DNA from: a virus
Length of the DNA stretch: 23,547 nt
IMG/VR virus record: IMGVR_UViG_3300033388_003509
Coordinates: 1-23,547 of that record
Strand: one strand, 5' to 3'
Shown: one piece after another, positions 4,285 through 22,528 of the stretch
Layout: every line of letters begins with the position of its first letter
Position numbering within the stretch: the first letter of the stretch is position 1
Notes under the pieces: generated by a model
The model's database searches: none
Seen by the model: the letters and a program-made list of their open reading frames with translations, nothing else
Told to the model about the DNA's origin: nothing
Program-made: the position numbers and the translations under genes

Positions 4285-5964
4285 ATGATCTCACCAAGAC
4301 TAACGAATTGTAAGGAGTGTGCAAACATTCCTGATCTATTACGAAAAATAGACTGTAAACTTGCAGAGCTAGGGAATAACTTATACAACAATGTTGTATT
4401 TATGTTAAACAGACCCATAGCTGTTAGTGAGATTTCAGAACTGTTAGTCTATAAACGTATATTACAACATAGATTTTGTGATAGTCATTATGCAAAAGAT
4501 TGCAATAGTATATCTACAGAAGACATTGCAAGTAAGGTAATACGTCTTACAGCTGGTTGTGTACCATTCTGTAACGAACCAACTGTATGTGAAATAACTA
4601 CATGTGCAATCAAACCTTGCCCTAATCCAACAACAACAACAACTAGTACCTCTAGTACTACTACAACTAGTACATCATCAACAACTACTACAACTAGTAC
4701 AATCTATCCAGACTGTAGAGTGGAAGGATGTTTTACAACACCAACTACTACCACAACTAGTTCTACTAGTACAAGTACATCAAGCACAACAACAACTACC
4801 ACTACCAATCCTATTACCACTACAACTACTACTACTCTAATAGCAGTCACAGGAAACTCATACTTTACTTTCTGGAGTGATACCTCAGGTTCTATGGATT
4901 CTACAATTGCAGTGACAGCACAAATAGCTAGTGTTACAGGTGTAAAGTCTCTAGTTTCAGGTATTTTACCAGCAGGATCAACAACAGTCCAACTATCATC
5001 AGGTAATCAGCAAAATAAAGTTACTGTGTCAGCTGTTAGTGGAGACACTACAAGTAAGGCATATTTATGTCTTGTACCTGGTATGGAAGCTATACATCCT
5101 GCAATACCTGCAGGAACTTTTATTGCAGTAGCAGGTACTACTACATTTAATCTTGTAGACATTAATGGAAGCCCTGTTGCAACAACAGCGGACATTGTCC
5201 AGGGAGCTAATGGTGTTATTACTTTTAATCTAACAGATGCTCAGAAAACTGCTGATTACCAAAACCCATCTAATTTAAGAAACTTACTTCAAGATTTTTA
5301 TGCAACAGGTGGAACTGAAGCAAGTGGAAATACAGACAGAGCTACTAACGGTAGTGATGAGTTTGAAGCTCGTGTATATTGGTGTCATAGTGGTCAAGAG
5401 AGACAAATTCAAATGCTCTCAAACAAAGGTCTTGGGGACACTATAGGCCCAACAGGATATTTTCCTGATGCAGATAATTTAGTAATTATGGCATTCGGTG
5501 ATGAGTCAGGTTATGGATATAATATGGATGGTGGTTTCGGAGTTTCAGGACCTGCCTGGTCAACTCGAGCGAGTCAAACAAATTCAAGAATAGTAGATGA
5601 TATAGCAAGTGTAAGAACTTTTGTTACGAATGTAGAAAATGCAAAAGGTAACACTAATGTATATAGAGCTAAGTTTTTCCATCCAGAAGCTACAAGTCAG
5701 TACACATTATCAACAATAAAACCTCTAGTTTCACCTGAAGGACTTCTTAATGCAGGAAATAATGGTGTAGCTGTAGTTGCAAGTATTGGTAATGTTCCTG
5801 CTAGTGCTTACAACAGTTCTACAGATAATCTAGTAAACTACCCAAGTGCAAGTCCTGCAAGATTTGCATGGTCAGCGGATCTAGATAATAATCCTGCTAA
5901 CCCAGAGCAGTACTGGTATGATGAAATAAGAAATACATTAATAAGCTTTGGATATGGAGTTTAG
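4285..5964 (+). CDS. Structural adaptor domain fused through Thr-rich linkers to a von Willebrand A-like domain
   Basis: 559 residues. Residues 1-110 are a helical, Cys-rich domain (starts MISPRLTNCKEC; Cys at 9, 12, 24, 65, 73, 92, 96, 102, 107, 112) that resembles a small stand-alone crAss structural protein. Two Thr/Ser-rich linkers follow (residues 116-139 and 154-184, separated by an YPDCRVEGCF segment). From about residue 190 a von Willebrand A-like fold is suggested by FTFWSDTSGSM: Asp199, Ser201 and Ser203 form the DxSxS part of a metal-ion-dependent adhesion site. A beta-rich insertion (about 215-320) interrupts it. Later segments such as NLVIMAFGDESG and GVAVVASIGNV look like further core strands. 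The likely role is metal-dependent binding to a host or matrix surface. Stop TAG is followed at once by TAA. Confidence 0.75.
   Translation: MISPRLTNCKECANIPDLLRKIDCKLAELGNNLYNNVVFMLNRPIAVSEISELLVYKRILQHRFCDSHYAKDCNSISTEDIASKVIRLTAGCVPFCNEPTVCEITTCAIKPCPNPTTTTTSTSSTTTTSTSSTTTTTSTIYPDCRVEGCFTTPTTTTTSSTSTSTSSTTTTTTTNPITTTTTTTLIAVTGNSYFTFWSDTSGSMDSTIAVTAQIASVTGVKSLVSGILPAGSTTVQLSSGNQQNKVTVSAVSGDTTSKAYLCLVPGMEAIHPAIPAGTFIAVAGTTTFNLVDINGSPVATTADIVQGANGVITFNLTDAQKTADYQNPSNLRNLLQDFYATGGTEASGNTDRATNGSDEFEARVYWCHSGQERQIQMLSNKGLGDTIGPTGYFPDADNLVIMAFGDESGYGYNMDGGFGVSGPAWSTRASQTNSRIVDDIASVRTFVTNVENAKGNTNVYRAKFFHPEATSQYTLSTIKPLVSPEGLLNAGNNGVAVVASIGNVPASAYNSSTDNLVNYPSASPARFAWSADLDNNPANPEQYWYDEIRNTLISFGYGV
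4630..4836 (+). repeat. Thr/Ser-codon repeat tracts (linkers)
   Basis: Two tracts (4630-4701 and 4744-4836) made almost only of ACA, ACT, ACC, AGT and TCA codons, with repeats of ACAACTAGT type. They encode Thr/Ser linkers in the von Willebrand A-like protein. Low complexity keeps other frames open here, which creates spurious ORFs. Confidence 0.85.
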
Positions 5965-5988: not shown

Positions 5989-8739
5989 ATGACAATAATA
6001 ATAACATTAAGTTTTGCAGGTGCAGACACAGGTCCTTTTGATCTATACTCGAACGTAGATGGGTTTATTACTCCATTTGAGACAGGTGTGAGTAAAGCGG
6101 ATCTATTGTCTGGGTATGAAACATCATTAGCCCCTGATGGAACTATAACTGTTAGACTGTTGGACTTGGGTGCATTGTGTACACCTAATACAACAGATAT
6201 TTATTCTTGTGCTACACCAAACTGTGATTTTTCTGGATCTATTCTTTGTGATGTTACAACAACAACAACCACGTCATCATCAACAAGTACTACAACAAGT
6301 ACTAATTATCCAGGTGTAGCACCTTGTACTTGGTCAACTTATGGAGGTAACTCTGGAGAAATAGCTGTATATGACTTTAATACTAATTCCTCAACTGTTG
6401 TGCTTGTACCTAATGACTTTACCACTACTGTAGGAATCAACAGACCTATCTGCTCTACAGGAGATAAGTTATGGTTGGCTAGTGTTACAACTGATGATAC
6501 AGTAGCATACATTAAAGAGTGGGACATAACTACATCTGGTCCTGTACCAACTTTATCTTATGTTAGAGAAATAACAATTGCTGTAAGTTCACTTAGTTAC
6601 AAAAGTATATGGGGAACTAAAATATCTACAATAGCTACAACCTCTGATAATAACACATTACTTGTAGGGTTTGGTGATAGATTTAATGGAAACGCTCTTA
6701 TGGGTGTTTACGAATGGGATATTTCTACAGTTGGAGATATTGAATTAACTGAATCTAATAGTACTGATGAAGTCAATGTTAATTTTGGTAATACCTCTGG
6801 ACACACAACAGAGCTTACAGGTATGTTTATTACTAATGATGGTGATGTTATTCTTTCTAGTAGATATTATGAAAACGAAAGTGATTTCAATGCCTCAAAT
6901 CGAATTAAACAATATCCAGGCTTACCTTCATCTGGTAGTTGGTCACCAAATCCTAACACTCCTATAATCAACTTACAGAATTCTGGTGTTCCTGAATTTA
7001 CATCTACATGGACTGGTTCAACTAAAGCTATGCCTGTATGGGGTGTAAATGGATTAATACAAGTAATTCAACCAGAAACACTTGAAGTATATAACATAAG
7101 TCAAACAGCACCATATAATGCTACATTAGAAACTACAGTGGCTGATGATAGTGTTTGGATACATACATCAACTGGTTGTGCAAATGTTGGTATTAAATTA
7201 ACAGATCCTGATTGTGAGGCTACTTGGATACCTGCACTAACTGAACGAGATGCTGGAAATAACCTCTTCTATATTGGGCCTGTTACTTTTACATATCAGG
7301 GAATTCAGGTTACAGCTAGTGCTGACGATAACTTCTTAGCATTACTACCAGGAAATCCAGTTGGAGGTATACCTAATAGCGGATGTAGTGGATTATCTAA
7401 TCCAGCTGCAACTAATAAGTTAACAACTGTTCAAGGTAATGATTTTAGTATTACTCTAACTTTTGAAAGTCCTATTAATAATCTTCCTATTAGAGCTGCT
7501 GTACTTAACACTTCTCCTGACTTTAGTTCTGGGGACGTTTATGAAATTACTACAAATACAGGAACACCTTCTATATCAATAAGTAATGGATGTAACGTAC
7601 AAGTACAAGGAAATAGAATAGGTGGAGGTGTGCCAGATTACAATACAGAAGGTGATGGAGAGTTTATTGTAACAACTCCTACCAACTTTACTGTTATAAC
7701 TATATCCGGTAATGCACCAACTGGGGGACCAATTCTGCTTGGTTGTGTCACTCCTCCTTTAAGTTGTTCAAGAATATTTACTAGTAGGGGTGTATTGAGC
7801 TGTAGTGATGGAATATGTGCCCCTGATAATTTGAATGGAAGCTATAATAGAGTTTATTCACAAAATACTGTAACAAATACTATAGAGGAAATTGCTCTTC
7901 CAGGAGGTAGCTATTTCCAACTACCTAATTCAGATATTACTAATAATTATTTTATTGGTCAAGTTAACAATAAAGATGCAGAAGGAGATTTAATTCGACA
8001 ATTTACAAGATGGAGTTATGATACCACATTACCAAGTGGTACACCTTCAAACTTTACATGGGAGGGTATACTTTATACTATAGATCAAAGTGAGTTACCT
8101 AATATAGGACCACCTTTTTACTATGGAGTAAGTACGGTTAATGACAACTTAATGGTACTATCGTATAGTATCTCTTCCTTTGCTGGAGGAGGTCAACAAG
8201 TGTTTGAAGCTGAATTTGTAGATGGATCTACAACATTAGCAGTTGCACTTAAATTCTTTATACCTGAACCATTTAATGGTTCTGGTGAACATGTGGTTAC
8301 CCTTAAAGAAGATGGAACACCAAATAAATTTATAGCACTCAAATCATCATATGTACTTGCTCAGTTTGATTATGACACAGGTAATCTAGAAGTAGAGATT
8401 CCAGGACCAGTTGGTAATTGGCAACAAGGTGGAGACATGGCTGTAGTTGATGATTATTTATATGTAACTTTACGTAGTACTACAGGAGGATCACTTAGCT
8501 TATATAGAGTTAATCTACAAACACATGTTTGGGAAGAAGTAGCAAACGAATCTGAATACTTTGGTGGAAGTTCAGGAAGTTTACCATTATGTAGAACAAA
8601 TGATGGATTTGCAGTACTTGGTACAACTACCACTACTACAACAGATCCTGATATAACAACAACAACTACCACTACTACATCTATACCTGGTGTAAGAACA
8701 ATATTTACTAAATTCAGTGCAGGGTCAGAACCAGCATAA
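5989..8739 (+). CDS. Large appendage protein: shared N-terminal domain, Thr-rich linker, two beta-propeller-like regions
   Basis: 916 residues. Residues 1-65 are the domain shared by five genes here (GPFDLYSNVDGF, then PFETGV and SGYETSLAPDGTITVR). A Thr/Ser linker (90-105) follows. Residues about 108-400 contain recurring strands of the type GEIAVYDFNTN, YIKEWDI and GVYEWDIS, typical of beta-propeller blades. A beta-sandwich-like part (about 400-600) precedes a second propeller-like region (about 605-875; blades such as VYSQNTVTNTIEEI, LAQFDYDTGNLEVEI and LSLYRVNLQTHVWEEV). Another linker (879-898) ends in only 18 residues. It is probably a tail or capsid appendage that binds surface glycans or proteins. 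No enzyme motif is seen. Gene spacing is 24 bases upstream and 9 downstream. Confidence 0.7.
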   Translation: MTIIITLSFAGADTGPFDLYSNVDGFITPFETGVSKADLLSGYETSLAPDGTITVRLLDLGALCTPNTTDIYSCATPNCDFSGSILCDVTTTTTTSSSTSTTTSTNYPGVAPCTWSTYGGNSGEIAVYDFNTNSSTVVLVPNDFTTTVGINRPICSTGDKLWLASVTTDDTVAYIKEWDITTSGPVPTLSYVREITIAVSSLSYKSIWGTKISTIATTSDNNTLLVGFGDRFNGNALMGVYEWDISTVGDIELTESNSTDEVNVNFGNTSGHTTELTGMFITNDGDVILSSRYYENESDFNASNRIKQYPGLPSSGSWSPNPNTPIINLQNSGVPEFTSTWTGSTKAMPVWGVNGLIQVIQPETLEVYNISQTAPYNATLETTVADDSVWIHTSTGCANVGIKLTDPDCEATWIPALTERDAGNNLFYIGPVTFTYQGIQVTASADDNFLALLPGNPVGGIPNSGCSGLSNPAATNKLTTVQGNDFSITLTFESPINNLPIRAAVLNTSPDFSSGDVYEITTNTGTPSISISNGCNVQVQGNRIGGGVPDYNTEGDGEFIVTTPTNFTVITISGNAPTGGPILLGCVTPPLSCSRIFTSRGVLSCSDGICAPDNLNGSYNRVYSQNTVTNTIEEIALPGGSYFQLPNSDITNNYFIGQVNNKDAEGDLIRQFTRWSYDTTLPSGTPSNFTWEGILYTIDQSELPNIGPPFYYGVSTVNDNLMVLSYSISSFAGGGQQVFEAEFVDGSTTLAVALKFFIPEPFNGSGEHVVTLKEDGTPNKFIALKSSYVLAQFDYDTGNLEVEIPGPVGNWQQGGDMAVVDDYLYVTLRSTTGGSLSLYRVNLQTHVWEEVANESEYFGGSSGSLPLCRTNDGFAVLGTTTTTTTDPDITTTTTTTTSIPGVRTIFTKFSAGSEPA
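6256..6303 (+). repeat. Thr/Ser-codon repeat tract (linker)
   Basis: Sixteen codons, nearly all ACA, ACT, ACC, TCA or AGT, joining the shared N-terminal domain to the first propeller-like region of the 916-residue appendage protein. Confidence 0.8.
8623..8682 (+). repeat. Thr-codon repeat tract near C-terminus
   Basis: Thr-codon run interrupted by DPDI. It is followed by only 18 more residues and the stop, so this linker leads to no recognisable domain. Confidence 0.8.
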
Positions 8740-8748
8740 CACATAGAT

Positions 8749-11700
8749 ATGAAAGGACTATTAACACAAGAAATAAAAGATAGAATATTAGAGTTGTCTC
8801 AGCAACTTCCTAATGTAACTAGTGTTGCTTGGGGAAGAAAAGTTGTTAATGGAACGTGGACAGGTGACTTTGCTATAGTTATAGCTGTAGAAAAAAAGAA
8901 GCCTCTTTCTGAGATTTCAATAAATGAACATATTCCATCACGTGTTATAGTATCTGGAAAAAGTATAAAAACAGATGTAATAGAAATAGCAAAGCATGAA
9001 GTTATAGGTACATGTTCTTCAACTTGTGGACAAACAAATAACACTGCATTAGCAAACAGACAATTCTTTCAACATTTACAAGGTGGTATTTCTTTTTCTA
9101 GTAGAAATAATGGAAATAGTGTAGGTACTCTTGGAGGTGTAGTTATACATTCAGAAACAGGCTGTTCAGTTGGTTTAACAAATAATCACGTTACTATTCA
9201 AGATGCATTTTATACATCTGATAGAAGTGTTACTGGAGCTCTTGTAAATGAATATAGTCCAGTAGATTATGTATATCAACAAGGAGAATTTGGAAGTGCA
9301 TCCACACCTGCAAGTTATAACTGTGGTGTAAGTTTACAGTATGTTCCTATTCATGCAAAGTCTACAGGTTTATTTAATCAGGTAGATGCAGCTATAATTT
9401 CTATTGATCCAACAAGATGGGACCCAACAGTTGCATGGAATCAAGTAGGACTAGAATCTATACTAGGTAGTAATCCACCACCATTTGCTTCTACATTAGA
9501 AATAGATAATCTATTAGCTACAAACCCTCGTGTATATAGTACTGGAAGAACTACTGGACCTAAAGGTATTGTACCAGATTGTCCTATGGTAATTCAATCA
9601 ATAAGTGCTACGCTTGAAAATATAGCTTATCCTAGTTCACAAGCAGCTAGTGTAAATTGTAAGTTTACTGATGCTATTAGATTTATTAAACCTCCTCAAG
9701 AAGATCCTGATAATGCGAATACAACAGAATATTGCTGTAATCCTATATATTCAGGAGATTCAGGATCATTCCTCCTCGCAGATATAAATGGAACTATCAA
9801 GATAATAGGACTATGTTATGCTGGTGGAGCTCAGGTGGTACCTGGTTGTTATCTATATGGTTATGCCTGTAGAATAGATATGGTTGCAGAACAAATGGGT
9901 ATACAGCAGTTTGTTACTCCTGGTCCACTAGTAGATCCAGATACAATTGAGTATATAACTATAGAGGGACAAAGTGACCAGAAAATAATATATTGTGAAA
10001 GTGAAGCGTACTGGCAAGTAGGATTTACAGGTAGTTTAGAAAATAACTGTGGTTCTGAAACCACTACCACCACCACTAGTTCAGCTCCTATTTCAGGTAA
10101 CTGTAGCCAACCTTATAACTTTGATGCTCCAGAGGGATTCCCAGGAATAAGCACTGGAAATGGAGTTAAAACATTAAGTAATGGGTTTGTACTGACATTA
10201 TCATCTGATAATGCTGATTGTGATACAGTATATGTTCCAAGTTCTTCTCCGCAACTTCTTCCAAATAATGGAACTGATCCAGATTGTGCACTACAAGGTT
10301 TCCACAATAATCAATATAATAATCAGGGTACATATTCTATAGGTGGTGGAAGGTGTTCTTCATCTACAATGTCATTTGATAACTCAATATCATCTATGGC
10401 ATTTTACTGTAGTGGTATAGGGTATTATCCTAATCCAGGAATATATGAAACAGTGAGAGTAACATCTGACGTAGATCTTAATATATCATTTATACAGGTG
10501 TGTAGAGAAAATCCTGATAGTTTTATAGTTTCTAATGAGACAGATGGTAGTGTGATATTTAAAGCAAAGTTGAATACAGGAGATCAACCAGCTCGTGCTT
10601 TATTTAATATATTTCCTAGAAACAATGGTGATAGAATTAATGAACTAACATTTACACATGTAGGAGATAAGTTAGCAGGTTGCCTTCTTGATTTTTATTT
10701 ATGTCCAGATGATCAGTTAACAACAACTACAACAAGTTCGTCTAGTACAAGTACTACCAGTACTACAAGTACTACAAGTACAAGTACAAGTACTACCAGT
10801 ACCAGTACAACCAGTACCAGTACAAGTACAAGTACTACTACTACATCAACTACTCTACCACCGCCTCCAGTTTGTCCTGATAAAGTTTTTGTTCTTCAAG
10901 TTTGTAATGAGAACTCAGATAGGGATGATGATTTTGATTTGTACTTAAACAATCAATATATCGGAGCTCTTGATTTAAACCAAAATGCTCAAATAGGCTC
11001 TATTTTCATTGGAAGCACAGACACTAATAAACTTGTAACTCAACCAGATTTTGTTTGCCCTTTAGCCGGAATGGTAGTTTATCATTTTGATCCGAGTATT
11101 TTAACAACAGGGATAAATACTATATTTATGGATAACACCCAGGATAATGGAAATGGTAATGCTGGAACAATTCAAATTAGAAATTACGAAATAGATCCAA
11201 CCGACCCCAACAGTCTTATAAATCCTTGTGTAGTATCTAACCAGGCCTTTAGCCCACCCAATGGGCAAGATTGGACAGCAACATTTGATTATACAGAATG
11301 TTGTCCATTTACAACAACAACTACAACCACGGTTGCTCCTACAACAACTACTACTAGTACTACTCCTGTACCAACAACAACAACTACTACTACTCCTGTG
11401 CCTACTACCACTACTACAAGTAGTTCTACTAGCACAAGCACAAGTACATCCACAAGTACAAGTACTAGTACGTCCACAAGTACTTCTACAACAACAAGTA
11501 CAAGTAGTACAACTACAACAACTACTACTGTTGATCCTAAACAGTATGCATTTAATTGGGTGTTTAATGGATCATCTAATCCAAGTACAGCAGGTCTATT
11601 TAGGAGTGCGAATCTTAAGATATCAGTTAATAACGTAGCAGTTGTAAATTCTGTTATAAACACAACTAATACATCAGACAGTGGCACTATAATGACAGCG

Positions 11701-12270
11701 TTGGGTGACATTATTAGTGCATCAATAACAACTGAAAACACATCAAGTGATACTGTTTTTGTTGAACACAAAGAAGACGCTAGTACTAGACCACCACAAT
11801 TTGCATCAAGTCTTGTATCTGCATCTAGTGACTATACATTTCTATTTTCCAACTGGACTCAACCAGGTGTAAGTAATAGTACTTGGAATTATGATACTAT
11901 TACTACTGCAACTGCACCTGCAAGTCTTATAATAGACTTTGAAGATGCTGGAGACGGAGTTCAGTTTGTATCTTTTGATGGTGAAGACGGTAATGTTTCA
12001 GAGACTTATCTTGCTGATCCAAGCAGTAATGGAACTTACAACTTTACTTTAGTAAACGGAAAGAGTTATGATCTACAAGCAACTTATCAATCACTTAACC
12101 CAGGACAAAACTGCACTTTAACAGTAAGTGGTCTTCAAGTTAGTGGATTTACTAGTTTTAGTGATACCGATACTGGAGCTGCTCAAACATTAATAGGTCC
12201 AGTGCTTGGAGGCTTTACAGTAACAGGAACAGGTGCTATTTCTCTAAACGCAACACAAACATCACCATAG
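8749..12270 (+). CDS. Multidomain appendage protein with N-terminal trypsin-like serine protease
   Basis: 1173 residues. Residues 1-85 (VTSVAWGRKVVNG, FAIVIAVEKKKP, IPSRV) resemble the small domain preceding the protease in Nal1-like bacterial trypsin-fold peptidases. Catalytic motifs follow in family order: His147 in GLTNNHV, Asp213 in QVDAAIISI and Ser338 in YSGDSGSFLL. After a short linker (438-443) come a Cys-containing beta domain (about 450-655), a long Thr/Ser linker (658-702), a domain shared with the gene at 15724 (706-845), a second long linker (855-927), a domain shared with the gene at 14012 (930-1035) and a C-terminal beta domain (about 1045-1173). No signal peptide is seen. I infer a virion-borne protease that cuts host surface proteins or matures virion proteins. 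Stop TAG; the next gene is in the same frame 24 bases on. Confidence 0.8.
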   Translation: MKGLLTQEIKDRILELSQQLPNVTSVAWGRKVVNGTWTGDFAIVIAVEKKKPLSEISINEHIPSRVIVSGKSIKTDVIEIAKHEVIGTCSSTCGQTNNTALANRQFFQHLQGGISFSSRNNGNSVGTLGGVVIHSETGCSVGLTNNHVTIQDAFYTSDRSVTGALVNEYSPVDYVYQQGEFGSASTPASYNCGVSLQYVPIHAKSTGLFNQVDAAIISIDPTRWDPTVAWNQVGLESILGSNPPPFASTLEIDNLLATNPRVYSTGRTTGPKGIVPDCPMVIQSISATLENIAYPSSQAASVNCKFTDAIRFIKPPQEDPDNANTTEYCCNPIYSGDSGSFLLADINGTIKIIGLCYAGGAQVVPGCYLYGYACRIDMVAEQMGIQQFVTPGPLVDPDTIEYITIEGQSDQKIIYCESEAYWQVGFTGSLENNCGSETTTTTTSSAPISGNCSQPYNFDAPEGFPGISTGNGVKTLSNGFVLTLSSDNADCDTVYVPSSSPQLLPNNGTDPDCALQGFHNNQYNNQGTYSIGGGRCSSSTMSFDNSISSMAFYCSGIGYYPNPGIYETVRVTSDVDLNISFIQVCRENPDSFIVSNETDGSVIFKAKLNTGDQPARALFNIFPRNNGDRINELTFTHVGDKLAGCLLDFYLCPDDQLTTTTTSSSSTSTTSTTSTTSTSTSTTSTSTTSTSTSTSTTTTSTTLPPPPVCPDKVFVLQVCNENSDRDDDFDLYLNNQYIGALDLNQNAQIGSIFIGSTDTNKLVTQPDFVCPLAGMVVYHFDPSILTTGINTIFMDNTQDNGNGNAGTIQIRNYEIDPTDPNSLINPCVVSNQAFSPPNGQDWTATFDYTECCPFTTTTTTTVAPTTTTTSTTPVPTTTTTTTPVPTTTTTSSSTSTSTSTSTSTSTSTSTSTSTTTSTSSTTTTTTTVDPKQYAFNWVFNGSSNPSTAGLFRSANLKISVNNVAVVNSVINTTNTSDSGTIMTALGDIISASITTENTSSDTVFVEHKEDASTRPPQFASSLVSASSDYTFLFSNWTQPGVSNSTWNYDTITTATAPASLIIDFEDAGDGVQFVSFDGEDGNVSETYLADPSSNGTYNFTLVNGKSYDLQATYQSLNPGQNCTLTVSGLQVSGFTSFSDTDTGAAQTLIGPVLGGFTVTGTGAISLNATQTSP
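10720..10854 (+). repeat. AGTACA/AGTACT-type hexanucleotide repeat encoding Ser-Thr linker
   Basis: 45 codons of Thr and Ser, with many near-perfect AGTACA, AGTACT and AGTACC units. This is the most regular tandem repeat of the window. It separates a beta domain from the next module of the protease-bearing protein. Such repeats are prone to replication slippage in multiples of three or six, which would change linker length without breaking the frame. Confidence 0.85.
11311..11529 (+). repeat. Longest Thr/Ser/Pro linker tract
   Basis: 73 codons: Thr runs separated by VAP and PVP, then a nearly pure Ser-Thr alternation and a final Thr run. It joins two shared modules of the protease-bearing protein. 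The composition is mucin-like. Confidence 0.85.
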
Positions 12271-12294: not shown

Positions 12295-13434
12295 ATGTCA
12301 ACACAAAATTGCTCAAATTGTTATAACGGATGTACTGAAATTACTTCAGACAAGTGCGTTAAATACACAGGTGTAGACGTTCCTATACTAGGAATAAAGA
12401 ATGGAGACTCCCTATCATTTGTGGAGCAAGCTCTTATTACCTTTTTAGGATCTACACTAGACGGAACAGGTATAACACCTGTGGTTCCCCCATCAGATAT
12501 ATGCCCTGCAGTGCAGGCTAATCTAGATGACTGTAACCCATTAACTTTAAATAACTACCTAGTAGGTATAATCAAAACTATCTGTAAATTACAGGAAGAA
12601 GTAAGTGAGATAGAAGGTGGTTCAGGAAGACCAAGTGTAAACTATGATGTAGGCTGTGTATCTGGAGTAACAGATACTACAAGTACATCAGATGTATTAC
12701 AACAAACTATAAATAAGTTGTGTGAAGTTGAGCAGTCACTGAACACTTTTATTACTGATGTTACAAACAACTACGTACAAATTGTTGATATTAATACGTA
12801 TATAGAAAACTATTTAAACACTAATCCTCAGCAACAGCTTATTAGTAATCGAATGGTTCCATTTTCTGCACAGCCATACTTTGGAGACTTAACACCATTT
12901 GATGCATCAGGTGCAGGAATAGGTATTTGGGATAGAATATTTCTATGTAATGGAAATAATGGTACACCAGATATGAGAGGAAGAGTAGCTGTTGGAGCTA
13001 CTGATATGCCAGGTCAAACTATGGATAACATAGTTGATCCGTCTGTTAGTGGAAATCCTACATATAACCTAAATGACCTTACTGGAACAAATCAAGTTGT
13101 ATTAACAACAGCACAAATACCTTCACATACACATACTAATAGGGTAGTAGCTTCACTTAGTCCAGCTTCTCACACCCACCTTGTTGCAACTTTAGGAAGT
13201 TCAAATGAATCAAATCCTCCTACAAGCAATAGCTATATTCGCCAGTCAAAAAGCACAGGTGGTAACTTAGGATATGCACTTAGAGGAGCAAGTAATCCAG
13301 CTACTGTAGGAAAAACTAGTGAAGTTAGTCAAAGTGTAGCTACAACTGTTACAATAAATTCTACTGGTGGAGGGTTACCACATAATAATTATCAACCTGG
13401 AATTGGATCATATTATATAATTTACATACCTTAA
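12295..13434 (+). CDS. Tail-collar-domain fibre protein
   Basis: 379 residues. The N-terminal part (1-110; Cys at 6, 9, 13, 21, 70, 80, 97) is a Cys-rich adaptor. Residues 135-175 are helical (LQQTINKLCEVEQSLNTF) and suit a trimer stalk. The C-terminal part has features of phage tail-collar / microcystin-dependent-type domains: GIWDRIFLCNGNNGTPDMRG (210-229), RVAVGATDMPG, two His-x-His motifs (His278/His280 and His293/His295, as used for metal binding in T4 gp12-type short fibres), and the ending LPHNNYQPGIGSYYIIYIP. The likely role is a trimeric receptor-binding fibre. It follows the protease-bearing gene in the same reading frame, separated by a TAG and eight codons. Confidence 0.8.
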   Translation: MSTQNCSNCYNGCTEITSDKCVKYTGVDVPILGIKNGDSLSFVEQALITFLGSTLDGTGITPVVPPSDICPAVQANLDDCNPLTLNNYLVGIIKTICKLQEEVSEIEGGSGRPSVNYDVGCVSGVTDTTSTSDVLQQTINKLCEVEQSLNTFITDVTNNYVQIVDINTYIENYLNTNPQQQLISNRMVPFSAQPYFGDLTPFDASGAGIGIWDRIFLCNGNNGTPDMRGRVAVGATDMPGQTMDNIVDPSVSGNPTYNLNDLTGTNQVVLTTAQIPSHTHTNRVVASLSPASHTHLVATLGSSNESNPPTSNSYIRQSKSTGGNLGYALRGASNPATVGKTSEVSQSVATTVTINSTGGGLPHNNYQPGIGSYYIIYIP

Positions 13435-13445
13435 TACTAAAAACA

Positions 13446-13757
13446 ATGGCATACTTACCCACTAATCCTTGTTGTACAAATATAGCAGTGAACACTACTT
13501 GTGGTTGTTCTACTTCTGTAAGTAATGATCCATGTGAAACTGGAATACATTATTCAAAATCTATTACATACAATGGACCAATATTACCTTGTTCTAATGT
13601 AGAACCTTGTGATGATTTAAACGTTGCTTTGTCTAAAATTGACGAACTTCTTTGTATATTGAAGACTCAACAAGCAACTAATACATCAGATATTTCTGCT
13701 ATAAAAGAACAAGTTATAAATATAAATAACACACTAAATACTTGTTGCGGATCATAA
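13446..13757 (+). CDS. Small Cys-rich coiled-coil adaptor protein
   Basis: 103 residues. Residues 1-55 are Cys-rich (NPCCTNIAVNTTCGCSTS, then NDPCETG and ILPCSNVEPC). Residues 58-98 form a heptad-like helix (LNVALSKIDELLCILKTQQA, SAIKEQVININNTL), and the protein ends in CCGS. This resembles the N-terminal part of fibre proteins without a receptor-binding domain, so it may be an adaptor or trimer seed for neighbouring appendages. Its stop overlaps the next start (TAATG, 13755-13759), which points to translational coupling. I know no named family. Confidence 0.7.
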   Translation: MAYLPTNPCCTNIAVNTTCGCSTSVSNDPCETGIHYSKSITYNGPILPCSNVEPCDDLNVALSKIDELLCILKTQQATNTSDISAIKEQVININNTLNTCCGS

Positions 13758-14008
13758 TGGAAGCATTTATAAAACTAACAACTGCAGGAAACAATACTGG
13801 ACCCTTCGATCTGTTCTCAGATGTAGATGGGTTCACTACTGCTTTTGAAACTGGTGTAACTAAAGTTAATTTATTAGCTGGCTATACTAGTACTGTAGTT
13901 CCTGATTTTACTACTATAATAAGAGTAACGTCAGATTCATTATGTGAAAATAGTTTTGATATTGTATTAGAACAAACTACAACTACCACAACAACACCAA
14001 CACCATAA
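13757..14008 (+). CDS. Stand-alone copy of the shared N-terminal domain with bare Thr-rich tail
   Basis: 83 residues from ATG 13757. A TTG 15 bases upstream is possible, but the TAATG overlap favours the ATG. The protein is the shared domain (NTGPFDLFSDVDGF, AFETGVTK, AGYTSTVVPDFTTIIRV) followed by seven Thr and PTP, then the stop. It is thus the adaptor plus the beginning of a linker with no cargo domain. The next gene starts three bases after the stop, in the same frame, and begins with another copy of the same domain. Confidence 0.75.
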   Translation: MEAFIKLTTAGNNTGPFDLFSDVDGFTTAFETGVTKVNLLAGYTSTVVPDFTTIIRVTSDSLCENSFDIVLEQTTTTTTTPTP

Positions 14009-14011
14009 GAT

Positions 14012-15148
14012 ATGTTGATACAAATAAACATAACCATACCTCCAGGAGGCTCTGCTGGACCTTTTGATTTATACTCAGATGCAGATGGATATACTAATCC
14101 ATTTGAAACACAAGTTCCTGCTTTAACTTTAACTAATGGATATGTTATTGAACTTCCTACAGGAGCAACTATTATAAGAGTATGTTCTGTTGATATATGT
14201 GAAAATTGTATTGACCTACCAACTAATTGTCCTACAACAACTACAACAAGTAGTTCTAGTACATCAACTACTACAAGTACTTCAACATCAACATCAACCA
14301 CTACAACGGAACAGCCCCCTAACAGATTTAACTGGGAGCTTATAACCAACACACCAAGTTCTTTAATTGCATCACAACCACAGAGCAGTAACTTAAAAAT
14401 AGATGTTAATGGAAATAATGTTGTAGATGCAACTATTACAGGTAATGCATCTTCACAAAGTGGAACTATTCAAATCTTACCAGGAGATGTAGTTTCTGCT
14501 ACAATAGATAGTAACAGAGTCGGAGTTTACAATTTTATCAATACAATTCAAAAAGACGGAATACTATATCAAGGACAGGATGTGTGTACTTTCTGTAATG
14601 ATAGTTTTGTAACTGCCCTAAGTCCTAATTATACTGGAGCAGGAGTTGATGTAGACTTCTCCTTTATAGCTGATACTTATAAAGAAGTTACAACAACAAC
14701 TACTAGTTCTACTAGTTCTACTAGCACTACAACTACTACCAGCTCTTCTTCAACAACAACTACAACTACTACATGTGATTGTTCCTTAAATAATCCTACT
14801 GTAACACTTACTGGTACTACAACAACTAGAATTCCATTTACGACAACTACTAGTACAACAGCTAGTGCATCTCTTGCAGCTGGTATAAGATCAATAACTA
14901 GTAATTCAAATCTAAATATTGGTTTATGTACTGCTGACCTTGCCGCATTCCTATGGAAAAATGGATCACTTGTTGAACCACAAATAAATGATTTTACATA
15001 TGATGTAATATTTCCAGCACTTCAAACATTTAACGGAGACAACAAATGGTACAAGTTTCAACTGTCTATAACTACAGTTGATCCAGGAAATTGGCTTATA
15101 AAAATTGATACAAATGGACGTATTACTAACATTGAGGAGTGTCCATGA
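14012..15148 (+). CDS. Mosaic appendage protein: shared N-terminal domain plus two linked modules
   Basis: 378 residues. Residues 1-72 are the shared domain (SAGPFDLYSDADGY, NPFETQV, PTGATIIRV). A Thr/Ser linker (75-99) leads to a beta module (about 103-225; FNWELITN, NLKIDVNGNNVVDATI, GTIQILPGDVVSATI) that is clearly related to residues 930-1035 of the protease-bearing protein. A second linker (227-254) and a Thr-rich piece (269-284) precede a C-terminal module (285-378; FLWKNGSLVEP, GDNKWYKFQL, IDTNGRITNIEEC). That module resembles the C-terminal part of the next gene product and a repeat common in flavobacterial surface proteins. It is probably an exposed virion appendage. Stop TGA. Confidence 0.7.
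   Translation: MLIQINITIPPGGSAGPFDLYSDADGYTNPFETQVPALTLTNGYVIELPTGATIIRVCSVDICENCIDLPTNCPTTTTTSSSSTSTTTSTSTSTSTTTTEQPPNRFNWELITNTPSSLIASQPQSSNLKIDVNGNNVVDATITGNASSQSGTIQILPGDVVSATIDSNRVGVYNFINTIQKDGILYQGQDVCTFCNDSFVTALSPNYTGAGVDVDFSFIADTYKEVTTTTTSSTSSTSTTTTTSSSSTTTTTTTCDCSLNNPTVTLTGTTTTRIPFTTTTSTTASASLAAGIRSITSNSNLNIGLCTADLAAFLWKNGSLVEPQINDFTYDVIFPALQTFNGDNKWYKFQLSITTVDPGNWLIKIDTNGRITNIEECP
14234..14308 (+). repeat. Thr/Ser-codon repeat tract (linker)
   Basis: 25 Thr/Ser codons between the shared N-terminal domain and the first module of the 378-residue protein. Confidence 0.8.
14690..14862 (+). repeat. Thr/Ser-codon repeat tracts (linkers)
   Basis: A main Thr/Ser tract (14690-14773) followed by a short CDCSLNNPTVTL segment and a second Thr-rich piece (to about 14862). 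It joins the two cargo modules of the 378-residue protein. Confidence 0.8.
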
Positions 15149-15151
15149 TCC

Positions 15152-15176
15152 ATAAAATAAAAATATAAAATGGCAA
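15152..15176 (+). repeat. Duplicated leader, copy 1
   Basis: 25 bases of A/T-rich leader plus the start ATGGCAA, identical to 15706-15730. It precedes a gene of the shared-domain family, suggesting that leader and gene start were duplicated together. Confidence 0.7.
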
Positions 15177-15709
15177 CACTAACAATAAAACTAGAATCCG
15201 CAGGCAGTTGCTCAGGACCAGTTGATCTATATTCAAATGCAAATCTTTATACAACGCCCTTTGCTACGAATGTTTCTATAACTATTCTAACAAGTGCACT
15301 AGGTTATAACATATCTACAAGTTCTGTTCCTATTGGAACTACCATTGTGAGAATAAAAAATAACAATGCTGACTGTGATAATTATGTTGACGCATCAATT
15401 GTCCCACAGTATACATCTGGATTTGGACTTTTTGATGCTCCAGCACCTCATAATAATGCTATAGATGCATGTTCAGATACATCTGTAACACCGGTAACTG
15501 AGTACTGGCACAATGGTGATAGTTTTAATTATACTCCACCTATTGGATCTTTTTTATATGATGGTCCAGACCCAGCAACAGCAAGTCTATTAGGATTGGA
15601 TGCAGGATGGTATAAAATAGGACCGAGTGCAACTGACGCAAGTGTAGCAGCAATACAGATAGCTTTAAATGGATATGAAGTTTTATGTTGTACTACTCTT
15701 TGTGAATAA
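15170..15709 (+). CDS. Appendage protein: shared N-terminal domain plus YWHNG-type C-terminal module
   Basis: 179 residues. Residues 1-77 are the most diverged copy of the shared domain (CSGPVDLYSNANLYTTPFAT, SSVPIGTTIVRI). Residues 80-179 form one module with TEYWHNGDSFNYTPPIGSFL, DAGWYKIG and IQIALNGYEVLCC. This type (Cys, an xYxHNG motif, a WYKI motif and a final NGxxxxxxC) recurs in flavobacterial surface proteins and in the preceding gene. There is no Thr-rich linker here; the domains join directly. The role is probably surface attachment. The stop TAA lies inside a repeated leader that also precedes this gene. Confidence 0.7.
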   Translation: MATLTIKLESAGSCSGPVDLYSNANLYTTPFATNVSITILTSALGYNISTSSVPIGTTIVRIKNNNADCDNYVDASIVPQYTSGFGLFDAPAPHNNAIDACSDTSVTPVTEYWHNGDSFNYTPPIGSFLYDGPDPATASLLGLDAGWYKIGPSATDASVAAIQIALNGYEVLCCTTLCE

Positions 15710-15730
15710 AATAAAAATATAAAATGGCAA
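15706..15730 (+). repeat. Duplicated leader, copy 2
   Basis: Identical 25 bases to 15152-15176. Here the repeat also contains the stop codon of the preceding gene (TAA 15707-15709). Confidence 0.7.
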
Positions 15731-16389
15731 TACTAATACAAGCTAGTAACATAGGAGCAGATGCTGGACCTTTTAACTTGTTTTCTCAGGTTGATGGTTT
15801 TACTGAAGCTTTTGAAGTAGATGTAACAAGCAATCAACTACTTGCAGGATTTGTTTCATATAACGTTCCTTTTGGAACTGCTGTAGTTAGAATTATATCT
15901 ACTAGTCCTGACTGTGATACTTATGTAGATAGAGAAATAGACGCACCTCCAAGTTGTCCAAATACTGTCACTGTCTTTCAGGTTTGTAATGAAAACGCAT
16001 CCAGGGATGACAATTTTGATGTATTCCTAAATGGGAACTTAATAGGGAATTTAGATCTAAATCAAGATGCTCAAGTAGGATCGATATTTATTGCTAGCAA
16101 TACACCGTTAGTAATAACTGAACCAGACTTTCCTTGTCCCTTGAGCAACATGCAGTTGTTCTTTTTTGATCCAGATATAATAACTCTGAGAAACACTGTA
16201 CAAATGATAAACACACAAAATAATGGAAACAATAATCGAGGTACATTATCAATACGCAACTACGAGATATCAGGGAATACATTAATAAACCCATGTTTTG
16301 TTGAAGATCTTGAGTGGGTAGGATCGTCTGGAGTAGACTTTGAGTTTTCATGGATCTATGACGAATGTTGTGGAAGTGATGTGAGATAG
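15724..16389 (+). CDS. Appendage protein: shared N-terminal domain plus a module also found in the protease-bearing protein
   Basis: 221 residues. Residues 1-73 are the shared domain (DAGPFNLFSQVDGF, AFEVDVTSNQLLAGF, VPFGTAVVRI). Residues 78-216 form a module related at roughly half of positions, by eye, to residues 706-845 of the protease-bearing protein. Matching blocks include QVCNEN, RDD.FD, LDLNQ.AQ.GSIFI, PDF.CPL, NNGN or DNGN, IRNYEI, LINPC and a final ECC. The stop is TAG, followed seven bases later by two terminator hairpins, so this is the last gene of the appendage block. Confidence 0.7.
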   Translation: MAILIQASNIGADAGPFNLFSQVDGFTEAFEVDVTSNQLLAGFVSYNVPFGTAVVRIISTSPDCDTYVDREIDAPPSCPNTVTVFQVCNENASRDDNFDVFLNGNLIGNLDLNQDAQVGSIFIASNTPLVITEPDFPCPLSNMQLFFFDPDIITLRNTVQMINTQNNGNNNRGTLSIRNYEISGNTLINPCFVEDLEWVGSSGVDFEFSWIYDECCGSDVR

Positions 16390-20203: not shown

Positions 20204-22528
20204 ATGGCTACTAGAAAAGAAATGGAAGACGCAAAAGCTAAAAAAGCTGCTGCTGCTAAAAAAGATGACAAAGCTCAGAAAGGCCAAGTTAGACTTGAAT
20301 ATAATCAAGCTACTACTGGTCTTAACATGGATAGCACCATCAATCAAGTAAAGACAGGAAGTCTTACCTATGCATTGAATGCTACTATAGAGAACTTTGA
20401 TTCTAGTTCAGTCAACTATCAAAATGAACCTGGTAATGAGCCTTGTTTAAGTTTTCCTGATGGGTACGAACTCATTGGAAAATATACAATTCCAGAGAAA
20501 AAGAAAAACATATTCTTTCTAACAAACCCTTTAACTGGTGATAGTGAAATTGGTTTCATGTTTAATAATGATTGTCAATATCAAACATTAGTAAATGCTC
20601 CTTGTTTAAACTTTAGTATAGATTATCCTATACATAAAGTAGTTCATAGAATAACAAATTGCAGTACAGAGATATACTGGACAGATGGATTTAATGCTAG
20701 GAGATATTTAGATATAGATAACATTCCATATGTTATTGATCCTAACTCAGACCCTGGATGTGATCCTGTATATACTGATCAAGTGGATTGTAATCAACTT
20801 AAGATACAACCTAATTTCGACATACCTTTTTTAGAAGTAAAAGATATACTAAACGTAGGCTCACTGGTTGCTGGAACATATCAATTTGCTGTACAGTATT
20901 CAGATGCAGCTGGTAGCGATCTTACTTCTTACTATTCAGTTACTAACCCTACACCTATTGCTGATCCGTTAAACACAACAGTAAACTTTAACTATCCAGT
21001 AGGTAAATCAATAGAAGTAAGGGTATCAAACCTGGACTTATCAGGACAATATAACTACTTCAATTTAGCAGTAATAAAAACTATTAATGATATAACCTCT
21101 GTAGAGTTAGTAGGTACATATAACATTACTGAAGATCAACAGATAATTACATATACTGGTGCAGATGCAAATCCTATACAATTATCTATTGCAGATATTT
21201 TTGAGAAGTATCCATATTATGATGTAGCCAAGGATATAACTTCTGCACAAGACACACTGATATGGAGTGACTTAGCTTCTGTAGATAGAATTAATTATCA
21301 GAATATTGCTAGTCAAATAACATTACAATGGGAAACACATAGACTCCCACCTGGAGAAGACTACAGTGATGAATTGAATGCTACTAATTATCGTGGATAC
21401 ATGCGTGATGAAGTGTATGCATTTGAAATAGTATTTCTTTTAAGAAATGGAAAACAGACAGACTCATTTCACATACCAGGCCCACTTAATCTAAACCCTC
21501 AACCGGATGTTCCTAATACCAATGATGACTTTATTGGAGAACCTGATTACTTTGAAAGTGGTATTGGTTATAGTCCTTATTGGAAGATATATAACAATGC
21601 TACAAACTTAGGATTTTCACCTGAGTATAATGGAGATGCTAATTATAAAGGACCTTTTGAATACGGAAACTTTGCATACTGGGAATCTACTGAAAAGTAT
21701 CCATGTAATACTGAGTTGTGGGGAAAACTTGCAGATACACCTATACGACATCATAAGTTTCCAGATGTATTAGTAAGTCCTATTGTAGAAAATCCACAGA
21801 TTGTTTATGAAGGTACTAGTATTGTACCCACGATGCAAGACTCTGATGCTATCTATCCTATAGGAGTTAAGATTAACAATACTCAAATAACAGGACTAAT
21901 AGCAGCTTCTAATCTTACTCAAGAACAGAAAGATGATATTGTAGCATTTAAAATAGTAAGAGGGGACCGTGGTACAAACAAATCAGTAATAGCAAAAGGT
22001 ATTCTTAGAAATGTAGGTAAATATTCTAGACAAGATCAAGAGTACTACTATCCTAACTATCCATATAATCAAGTATCAGGAGAAGACTCTTTTTTACAGG
22101 AAAACAACAATGCTTGGAATATTGAGTCTAAACCATGGTTAATATATTATTCAGATACAGACACAAGACAAATCTTTCCAGGGTATAACATAGAGATTTC
22201 TGTACAGGAAGATGAAGGTGTGTTTCAGTATGTAAGTATTGACAACGGTAGACCAACACAAAGAAAAATCCAGCCTAATTGTATTGTAGAAGTGTGTTCT
22301 CTTACTAGACCAGTTGCACTAAAGGGAGTAATGACTATAGGACCAGCAGACTTTGATGTGTGGCGAGGGTATCATGGAAGAGGGTTGTTTGGTATATTGT
22401 CTGGGTGGGCAATCGAATGGCAAAATCCATTTAATAATTTTAATTTTGACGGAACAGTTTACAACAAAAAGTTTCTTAATGCCACTGGTTGGTTTGGTAG
22501 AGAACTTTGTACTGGATGGTCATATTAA
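20204..22528 (+). CDS. Tail stabilization / muzzle protein, first part (frame broken)
   Basis: 774 residues in this frame, ending at TAA 22526-22528. After a Lys/Ala-rich start, the protein has hallmarks I remember from the crAss 'stabilization' protein (P22 gp10-like; the muzzle at the end of the tail): VRLEYNQATTGLNMDSTINQ, SVNYQNEPGNE, NPLTGDSEIGF, ITNCSTEIYWTDGFNARRYL and RGYHGRGLFG. The conserved segment NATGWFGRE ends at 22504. After it the frame gives only LCTGWSY before the stop, while the +1 frame continues with family-like sequence to the window end. The true protein is therefore longer, either through frameshifting or because of an indel here. Confidence 0.8.
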   Translation: MATRKEMEDAKAKKAAAAKKDDKAQKGQVRLEYNQATTGLNMDSTINQVKTGSLTYALNATIENFDSSSVNYQNEPGNEPCLSFPDGYELIGKYTIPEKKKNIFFLTNPLTGDSEIGFMFNNDCQYQTLVNAPCLNFSIDYPIHKVVHRITNCSTEIYWTDGFNARRYLDIDNIPYVIDPNSDPGCDPVYTDQVDCNQLKIQPNFDIPFLEVKDILNVGSLVAGTYQFAVQYSDAAGSDLTSYYSVTNPTPIADPLNTTVNFNYPVGKSIEVRVSNLDLSGQYNYFNLAVIKTINDITSVELVGTYNITEDQQIITYTGADANPIQLSIADIFEKYPYYDVAKDITSAQDTLIWSDLASVDRINYQNIASQITLQWETHRLPPGEDYSDELNATNYRGYMRDEVYAFEIVFLLRNGKQTDSFHIPGPLNLNPQPDVPNTNDDFIGEPDYFESGIGYSPYWKIYNNATNLGFSPEYNGDANYKGPFEYGNFAYWESTEKYPCNTELWGKLADTPIRHHKFPDVLVSPIVENPQIVYEGTSIVPTMQDSDAIYPIGVKINNTQITGLIAASNLTQEQKDDIVAFKIVRGDRGTNKSVIAKGILRNVGKYSRQDQEYYYPNYPYNQVSGEDSFLQENNNAWNIESKPWLIYYSDTDTRQIFPGYNIEISVQEDEGVFQYVSIDNGRPTQRKIQPNCIVEVCSLTRPVALKGVMTIGPADFDVWRGYHGRGLFGILSGWAIEWQNPFNNFNFDGTVYNKKFLNATGWFGRELCTGWSY

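Follow-up and report, generated by a model that had tools for sequence, protein, structure and literature searches.

Enzymes on phage appendages are known chiefly as depolymerases directed against sugars. Among proteases of the chymotrypsin fold, HtrA proteases such as DegS are switched by the C-terminal peptides of outer-membrane proteins, which bind the PDZ domain. In plant NARROW LEAF 1 (NAL1), a pre-domain precedes a chymotrypsin-fold domain; according to one report, ZmNAL1a degrades the corepressor REL2 (PMC12915138). Both the fold and the enzyme class treated here are already known; a literature search limited to open-access papers turned up none that deals with a phage NAL1-like protease or with a peptide tag of the kind described below. 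We analysed a viral DNA of 23,547 nucleotides (IMG/VR record IMGVR_UViG_3300033388_003509; hereafter, the window), in which a preliminary description had noted a trypsin-like serine protease.

Fold and family of the protease

The predicted protease and its C-terminal modules are encoded in one ORF, in which the interval 8749-10062 corresponds to residues 1-438. Its parts are:

8749..12270, + strand: whole ORF, 1173 aa; match to PHROG 20754 ('protease'), E 2e-11
8749..9006, + strand: NAL1_N-like pre-domain, residues ~1-86 (profile alignment with NAL1 chains; VIA-align range 1-399)
9070..9918, + strand: chymotrypsin/trypsin-fold domain, residues 108-390 (predicted structure, fold search)
9187..9189, + strand: triad residue His147 (TNNHV), 58/58 homologues
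9385..9387, + strand: triad residue Asp213 (NQVDAA), 58/58 homologues; the sole invariant acidic residue between His147 and Asp337
9760..9762, + strand: triad residue Ser338 (GDSGS), 58/58 homologues
9934..10050, + strand: conserved C-terminal tail of the protease, residues 396-434 (alignment; mostly beyond the NAL1 match)
10060..10092, + strand: Thr/Ser linker 1, residues 438-448
10093..10719, + strand: C-terminal segment A, residues 449-657
10720..10854, + strand: Thr/Ser linker 2, residues 658-702
10855..11337, + strand: C-terminal segment B, residues 703-863
11338..11532, + strand: Thr/Ser/Pro linker 3, residues 864-928
11533..12267, + strand: C-terminal segment C, residues 929-1173; matches in L003-L005

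The C-terminal part had been described as four linked beta domains; we recognize three segments instead (residues ~449-657, 703-863 and 929-1173 of ORF 8749-12270). The conserved tail (residues 396-434) was considered as a module common to virion proteins and rejected as such, being absent from the other ORFs of the loci compared.

For the alignment and for structure prediction, we used 58 representative homologues obtained from scans of viral contigs. With these 58 sequences, AlphaFold2 produced a protease model with a mean pLDDT of 88.7 and a pTM of 0.91; a model built on just six near-identical sequences had a pLDDT of 27.8. In a Foldseek search against the PDB, ranks 1-34 were all occupied by rice NAL1 chains (best E 1.7e-16). 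VIA-align superposed residues 1-399 of the model on rice NAL1 (7y77_C; Z 29.5, rmsd 3.3, 323 residues aligned), that is, on the pre-domain and protease domain that characterize the NAL1 family fold, whereas the bacterial enzymes S. griseus protease B and alpha-lytic protease (Z ~17.4) matched the protease domain alone, over residues ~108-390; the lack of a fold family in the VIA list is not evidence of its absence. A profile search of PDB sequences backed the fold search independently, as NAL1 came first in both (E 0.0003), with TNNHV and GDSGS aligned to the corresponding NAL1 motifs. Searched as a single sequence, the window protease found nothing useful in Pfam, NCBIfam or the PDB, whereas profiles did match.

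The predicted two-barrel chymotrypsin fold, the order His, Asp, Ser and the GDSG around the serine (58/58) are the features of clan PA. The Pfam NAL1 families were not reached: the window protease had no match at E up to 1, NAL1_N gave weak matches in 6 of 26 phage members (best E 0.0035), and the NAL1 Pfam scores shown for phage members were 11.7-14.4 bits against cut-offs of 26.1-27. The match to PHROG 20754 covered residues 21-248 only. Two relatives from bacterial plasmids bridge the gap to the Pfam cut-offs, L230 passing NAL1_N and L231 passing Nal1_C. On the strength of the fold match and of these relatives, we assign the window protein as a predicted remote NAL1-type serine protease.

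The Nal1-like pre-domain and trypsin fold proposed earlier for residues 1-438 were thus borne out by the predicted fold and its match to NAL1, and the fold search recovered both NAL1 and trypsin-fold structures. His147, Asp213 and Ser338 (in GDSGS) were found where they had been placed, and none of the 58 aligned homologues had lost any of them. That the three residues superpose as a triad we infer from this invariance, taken together with the profile alignment and the match of folds.

Four cysteines of the ORF (Cys89, Cys93, Cys278 and Cys329) were likewise invariant in 58/58 homologues and might form a metal site or disulfides. Residues 89-96 are the sole long stretch of the protease model with a pLDDT below 50.

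Genomic context and distribution

The neighbours of the protease gene match tail and virion structural families. The following features surround it:

5989..8739, + strand: partner gene immediately upstream of the protease gene; product of 916 aa with the C-terminal tag
8689..8715, + strand: tag GVRTIFTKF, partner residues 901-909, 7 residues from the end, after a Thr-rich linker
12295..13434, + strand: downstream gene, its C-terminal part matching phage tail proteins (PHROG 8763, E 1.4e-19)
5989-6200, 13757-14005, 14012-14220, 15170-15400 and 15724-15915: N-terminal modules of the GPFDLYS type

Near relatives commonly have the same order: of the 78 loci in which the gene before a member of the downstream-gene family was readable, 63 had the protease in that place. 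Within segment B, residues 706-852 share 54% identity over 147 residues (E 1e-31) with residues 75-216 of ORF 15724-16389, and other homologues carry varied extensions, among them one (L082) with PKD and DUF285 matches. From this context of tail and structural genes, we infer that the window protease probably belongs to an appendage of the virion.

The GPFDLYS-type modules (GPFDLYS or a similar sequence, ~60-70 aa) are common to five window ORFs with pairwise identities of 36-51%, and are perhaps a common attachment domain. ORF 4285-5964 contains the stretch DTSGSMDST, which we take to resemble the metal-binding motif of von Willebrand A domains; Pfam gave no family for this ORF. It belongs to the family, here called MISPRL, in which members adjoining the protease acquire the tag.

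The relatives considered here are those among the matches listed in the scans of viral contigs. After four of 91 rows had been dropped (L157, L007 and two pieces of L006), 87 distinct ORFs remained. Among these matches, 69 of 87 terminate at most 5 residues from the protease domain, 17 continue for another 157-848 aa, and one is truncated. Since most homologues stand alone, what the family conserves is the protease, with the appendage modules as optional additions. The earlier view that the protease is built into a phage appendage was therefore supported by the gene context and failed as a rule for the family. In two phage types (L024/L028 and L106), two protease copies lie side by side.

A scan of genome contigs gave one remote match (L157, 25%), and no close homologue was found among the isolate genomes searched. 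The putative host group of these phages is the Bacteroidota. Phages phi17:2 and Lbo-JY46, both of which have a relative of the structural gene 20204-22528, gave no protease match. A match in Rhizobium phage RHph_Y68 (E 0.2) covered three small unrelated genes and was judged to be due to chance. The uncultured huge phage LR756508 (484 kb; L232) has a remote NAL1-like gene of 335 aa at 5989-6993, outside any visible tail cluster and preceded by a gene without the tag. The nearest module-free homologue (L006/L014, 1160-2460; 75% identical) has a frame break near codon 123, which may be a sequencing error or mark a broken gene.

A C-terminal tag on the gene preceding the protease

The genes directly 5' of the protease encode otherwise different proteins with a common C-terminal motif, T[IVLM][FWY]xx[FYIL]. 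We compared these genes for 81 non-identical proteases (5' frames of 93-2667 aa, some cut by locus ends), counting the pattern [ST][IVLM][FYW]..[FYIL] within the last 25 residues. Among the matches listed, the tag was present in 76/81 genes directly 5' of the protease, which corresponds to 58/63 distinct 25-residue tails, against 2/572 distinct tails of the other genes of the same loci; as the tag sequences are related by descent, Fisher p-values overstate the case. The strict tag was missing in five upstream genes: L082, L060, L061, L106 copy 2 and L024 copy 2.

Because the pattern had been read off the same 81-protease set on which it was counted, a prediction was written down, before the upstream genes of the new loci had been inspected, and tested on these held-out loci. 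Removal of 37 proteases with at least 95% identity to the discovery set and of one without a readable upstream gene left 13 of 51 new proteases. The predicted tag was present in 10 of these 13. The three misses (L164-L166) were of the type of L106 copy 2, two having the variant FTAFVSF and L166 having none. In L106, the C-terminus of the first protease copy itself ends in FTSFVTFESYNC, a variant of the FTAFVSF type, just before the second copy. A tag hidden by a frame change was considered for L082, L060, L061 and L166 and rejected, as reading in three frames showed none.

The 30 residues before the tag include 12 or more T/S/P residues in 53 of 58 tagged tails. Between the tag and the C-terminus lie only 1 to 7 residues. 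Position 3 of the tag is encoded in 36 distinct tag DNAs as F in 16 (TTT/TTC), W in 10 (TGG) and Y in 10 (TAT/TAC). The distance from the tag to the protease start is variable, from 25 to 51 nt. Judged from these sequences, the tag is conserved at the peptide level. Among the clades, three have tags that read TIFTKF, TIYTHF and TIWTWF.

In L104 and L110, the gene 5' of the protease has the tag twice in tandem (first TVFVKY... or TVFAKY..., second TVFVKY), which might allow the holding of two proteases.

Association of the tag with the protease

Three partner families allowed comparison of members with and without the protease next to them. MISPRL proteins were tagged in 13/13 distinct cases with the protease next and in 2/30 elsewhere; the MISPRL-type ORF 4285-5964 in the window is untagged. 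Long GPFDLYS proteins were tagged in 26/28 cases beside the protease versus 0/3 otherwise. Six FFIKK proteins adjoin the protease, of which three have the strict tag, two a variant and one none; in five others with a gene in between, 0/5 FFIKK proteins were tagged, and the intervening gene was tagged in all five. By sequence, then, the tag goes with the position beside the protease and not with the protein family.

We also read 12 contigs piecewise. Several of them hold discovery-set loci; fresh material for the tag counts came from the held-out loci and from six added contigs. The 12 contigs contained 13 proteases and 12 tags, 11 of which were on a gene adjoining the protease. The remaining one is in contig G001, which has two proteases: copy 1 is adjoined by TIFTYF, and copy 2 follows copy 1 and has no adjacent tag. 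In the family tree, copy 2 groups with five other proteases, each of which has TIYTHF (clade support 100/99). The sole other G.xT-type tag of the contig is TIYTHF, on a MISPRL-type gene ~52 kb away. The match argues for a tag that would act in trans in this phage. As regards the protease residues that might touch the tag, tag type and protease phylogeny are confounded. With the stricter G.xT pattern, six contigs gave six such tags and one other match, in an unused frame. With the strict pattern, there were twenty further matches in the 1203 genes of the 12 contigs, which we read as chance, partly because they lack the linker or the adjacency. In G006 (L082; a 122 kb contig with one protease), no clear tag was found anywhere, only the doubtful relaxed match ITIFPTV.

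The adjacency of the tag, its tracking of the protease across partner families and the match in trans in G001 together suggest a putative specific recognition between protease and tag, which we regard as likely.

Possible function of the tag and the protease

We see about even chances that the NAL1-type protease sits on a tail appendage, that the tag docks the partner, and that host surface proteins are cleaved at adsorption. The partner would be a long adhesin-like protein, usually with a floppy Thr- or Pro-rich linker followed by the tag. As a docking strand, the tag would bind the cognate protease and hold it on the appendage; in some phages, including that of the window, the protease would also have binding modules of its own. 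During adsorption, the tethered protease would cut host surface proteins. We prefer docking to cleavage of the tag because, with the tag at the extreme end of a flexible linker, a cut there would release nothing. Pure docking does not require an invariant triad, which counts against the docking explanation; since the triad never varies, catalysis should matter too, most simply on host surface proteins. More broadly, and with a probability that we put at one half, tag and protease may form an exchangeable lock and key: a clade-specific tag moved between unrelated adhesins and recognized in trans by one cognate NAL1-type protease, which would be loaded, or would process or even covalently join (through the acyl-enzyme) the tagged protein, on the virion surface.

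The main rival to docking is that the tag is a substrate, so that the C-terminus of the partner is cut at assembly or adsorption as a maturation or release switch. The invariant triad (58/58) would suit this, as would the extended, hydrophobic character of the tag with an aromatic residue at position 3 (16 F, 10 W and 10 Y among 36 distinct DNAs); S. griseus protease B and other bacterial relatives of the fold accept such residues at P1. However, with only 1 to 7 residues after the tag and a mostly long floppy linker before it, a cut would free no domain, and we give this reading roughly one chance in four. It is still less probable that the tag serves another partner, attaching the adhesin to the tail or to an unseen protein, and that the protease just happens to be the gene that usually comes next in the operon. 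The tag gene does adjoin the protease in 11 of 12 tagged cases in the 12 contigs, but the tag is lost from these partner families where another gene takes the place of the protease, and the unlinked tag of G001 matches the clade of the orphan protease.

A role of the protease inside the infected cell rather than in the virion, for example as a maturation protease from a late operon, appears similarly unlikely to us. That most homologues stand alone (69/87 among the matches listed) and that cellular NAL1-like relatives exist speak for it; the position of the gene among tail genes, the module in common with a neighbouring ORF and the varied C-terminal extensions, such as PKD and DUF285 in L082, speak against it. 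We strongly disfavour the idea that the conserved stretch is a DNA or RNA expression signal for the protease gene and a peptide by accident. The stretch does lie 25-51 nt from the protease start codon, but this distance varies, F, W and Y are exchanged via different codons, and an exact tag copy occurs ~52 kb from any protease, all of which speaks against such a signal.

If true, a NAL1-type protease paired with a dedicated peptide tag would be another kind of means to get across the host surface, and, if confirmed, a natural tag-and-protease pair on a virus surface. As the tag occurs on several unrelated proteins, varies with the clade and in one phage appears in trans, its specificity code is directly testable. 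The pair would also show how the NAL1 fold recognizes peptides, which is relevant to the plant NAL1 proteins.

Comparison with known systems

PHROG 20754 ('protease', category other) matches the window protein (E 2e-11) as well as 7/7 divergent members scanned, but its annotation makes no mention of virion, appendage or tag. The structure BFVD A0A7S9XDX3 from Virus NIOZ-UU157, an uncharacterised protein, resembles the window protease over its full length (TM-score 0.93 by query length, 42% identity); unlike it, this protein is stand-alone, with 449 residues and no function assigned.

NAL1-like proteins encoded on Rhizobium and Rubrobacter plasmids (L230, L231 and L233; 4 plasmid records) were found with tblastn at E 4e-10 to 5e-7 over 79-95% of the phage query. 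In contrast to the phage protease, they have 317-329 aa and lie outside phage structural genes. Proteins of ~80 aa adjoin these bacterial genes (4872-5105 in L231, from the Rubrobacter plasmid; 3593-3838 in L230; 4900-5145 in L233). The one in L231 can be aligned to its neighbour's pre-domain (38% over 53 aa; pairwise E 1e-5), and those of L231 and L230 do not align with each other. The L230 gene is also near a radical SAM gene and an HEXXH peptide-modification gene.

DegS shares the chymotrypsin fold with the phage protease (Z ~13) and, if docking is true, the recognition of a short C-terminal peptide. The phage protease differs in that no PDZ domain is seen and in that the tag ends 1-7 residues before the C-terminus.

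Plant NAL1 has the same order of a NAL1_N-like pre-domain and a chymotrypsin-fold domain, with His and GDSGS aligned, although identity is only ~16% and the scanned phage members fall below the Pfam cut-offs for NAL1_N and Nal1_C. Unlike plant NAL1, the phage family has the additional conserved region 396-434, four invariant cysteines, a context of tail genes and a tagged partner.
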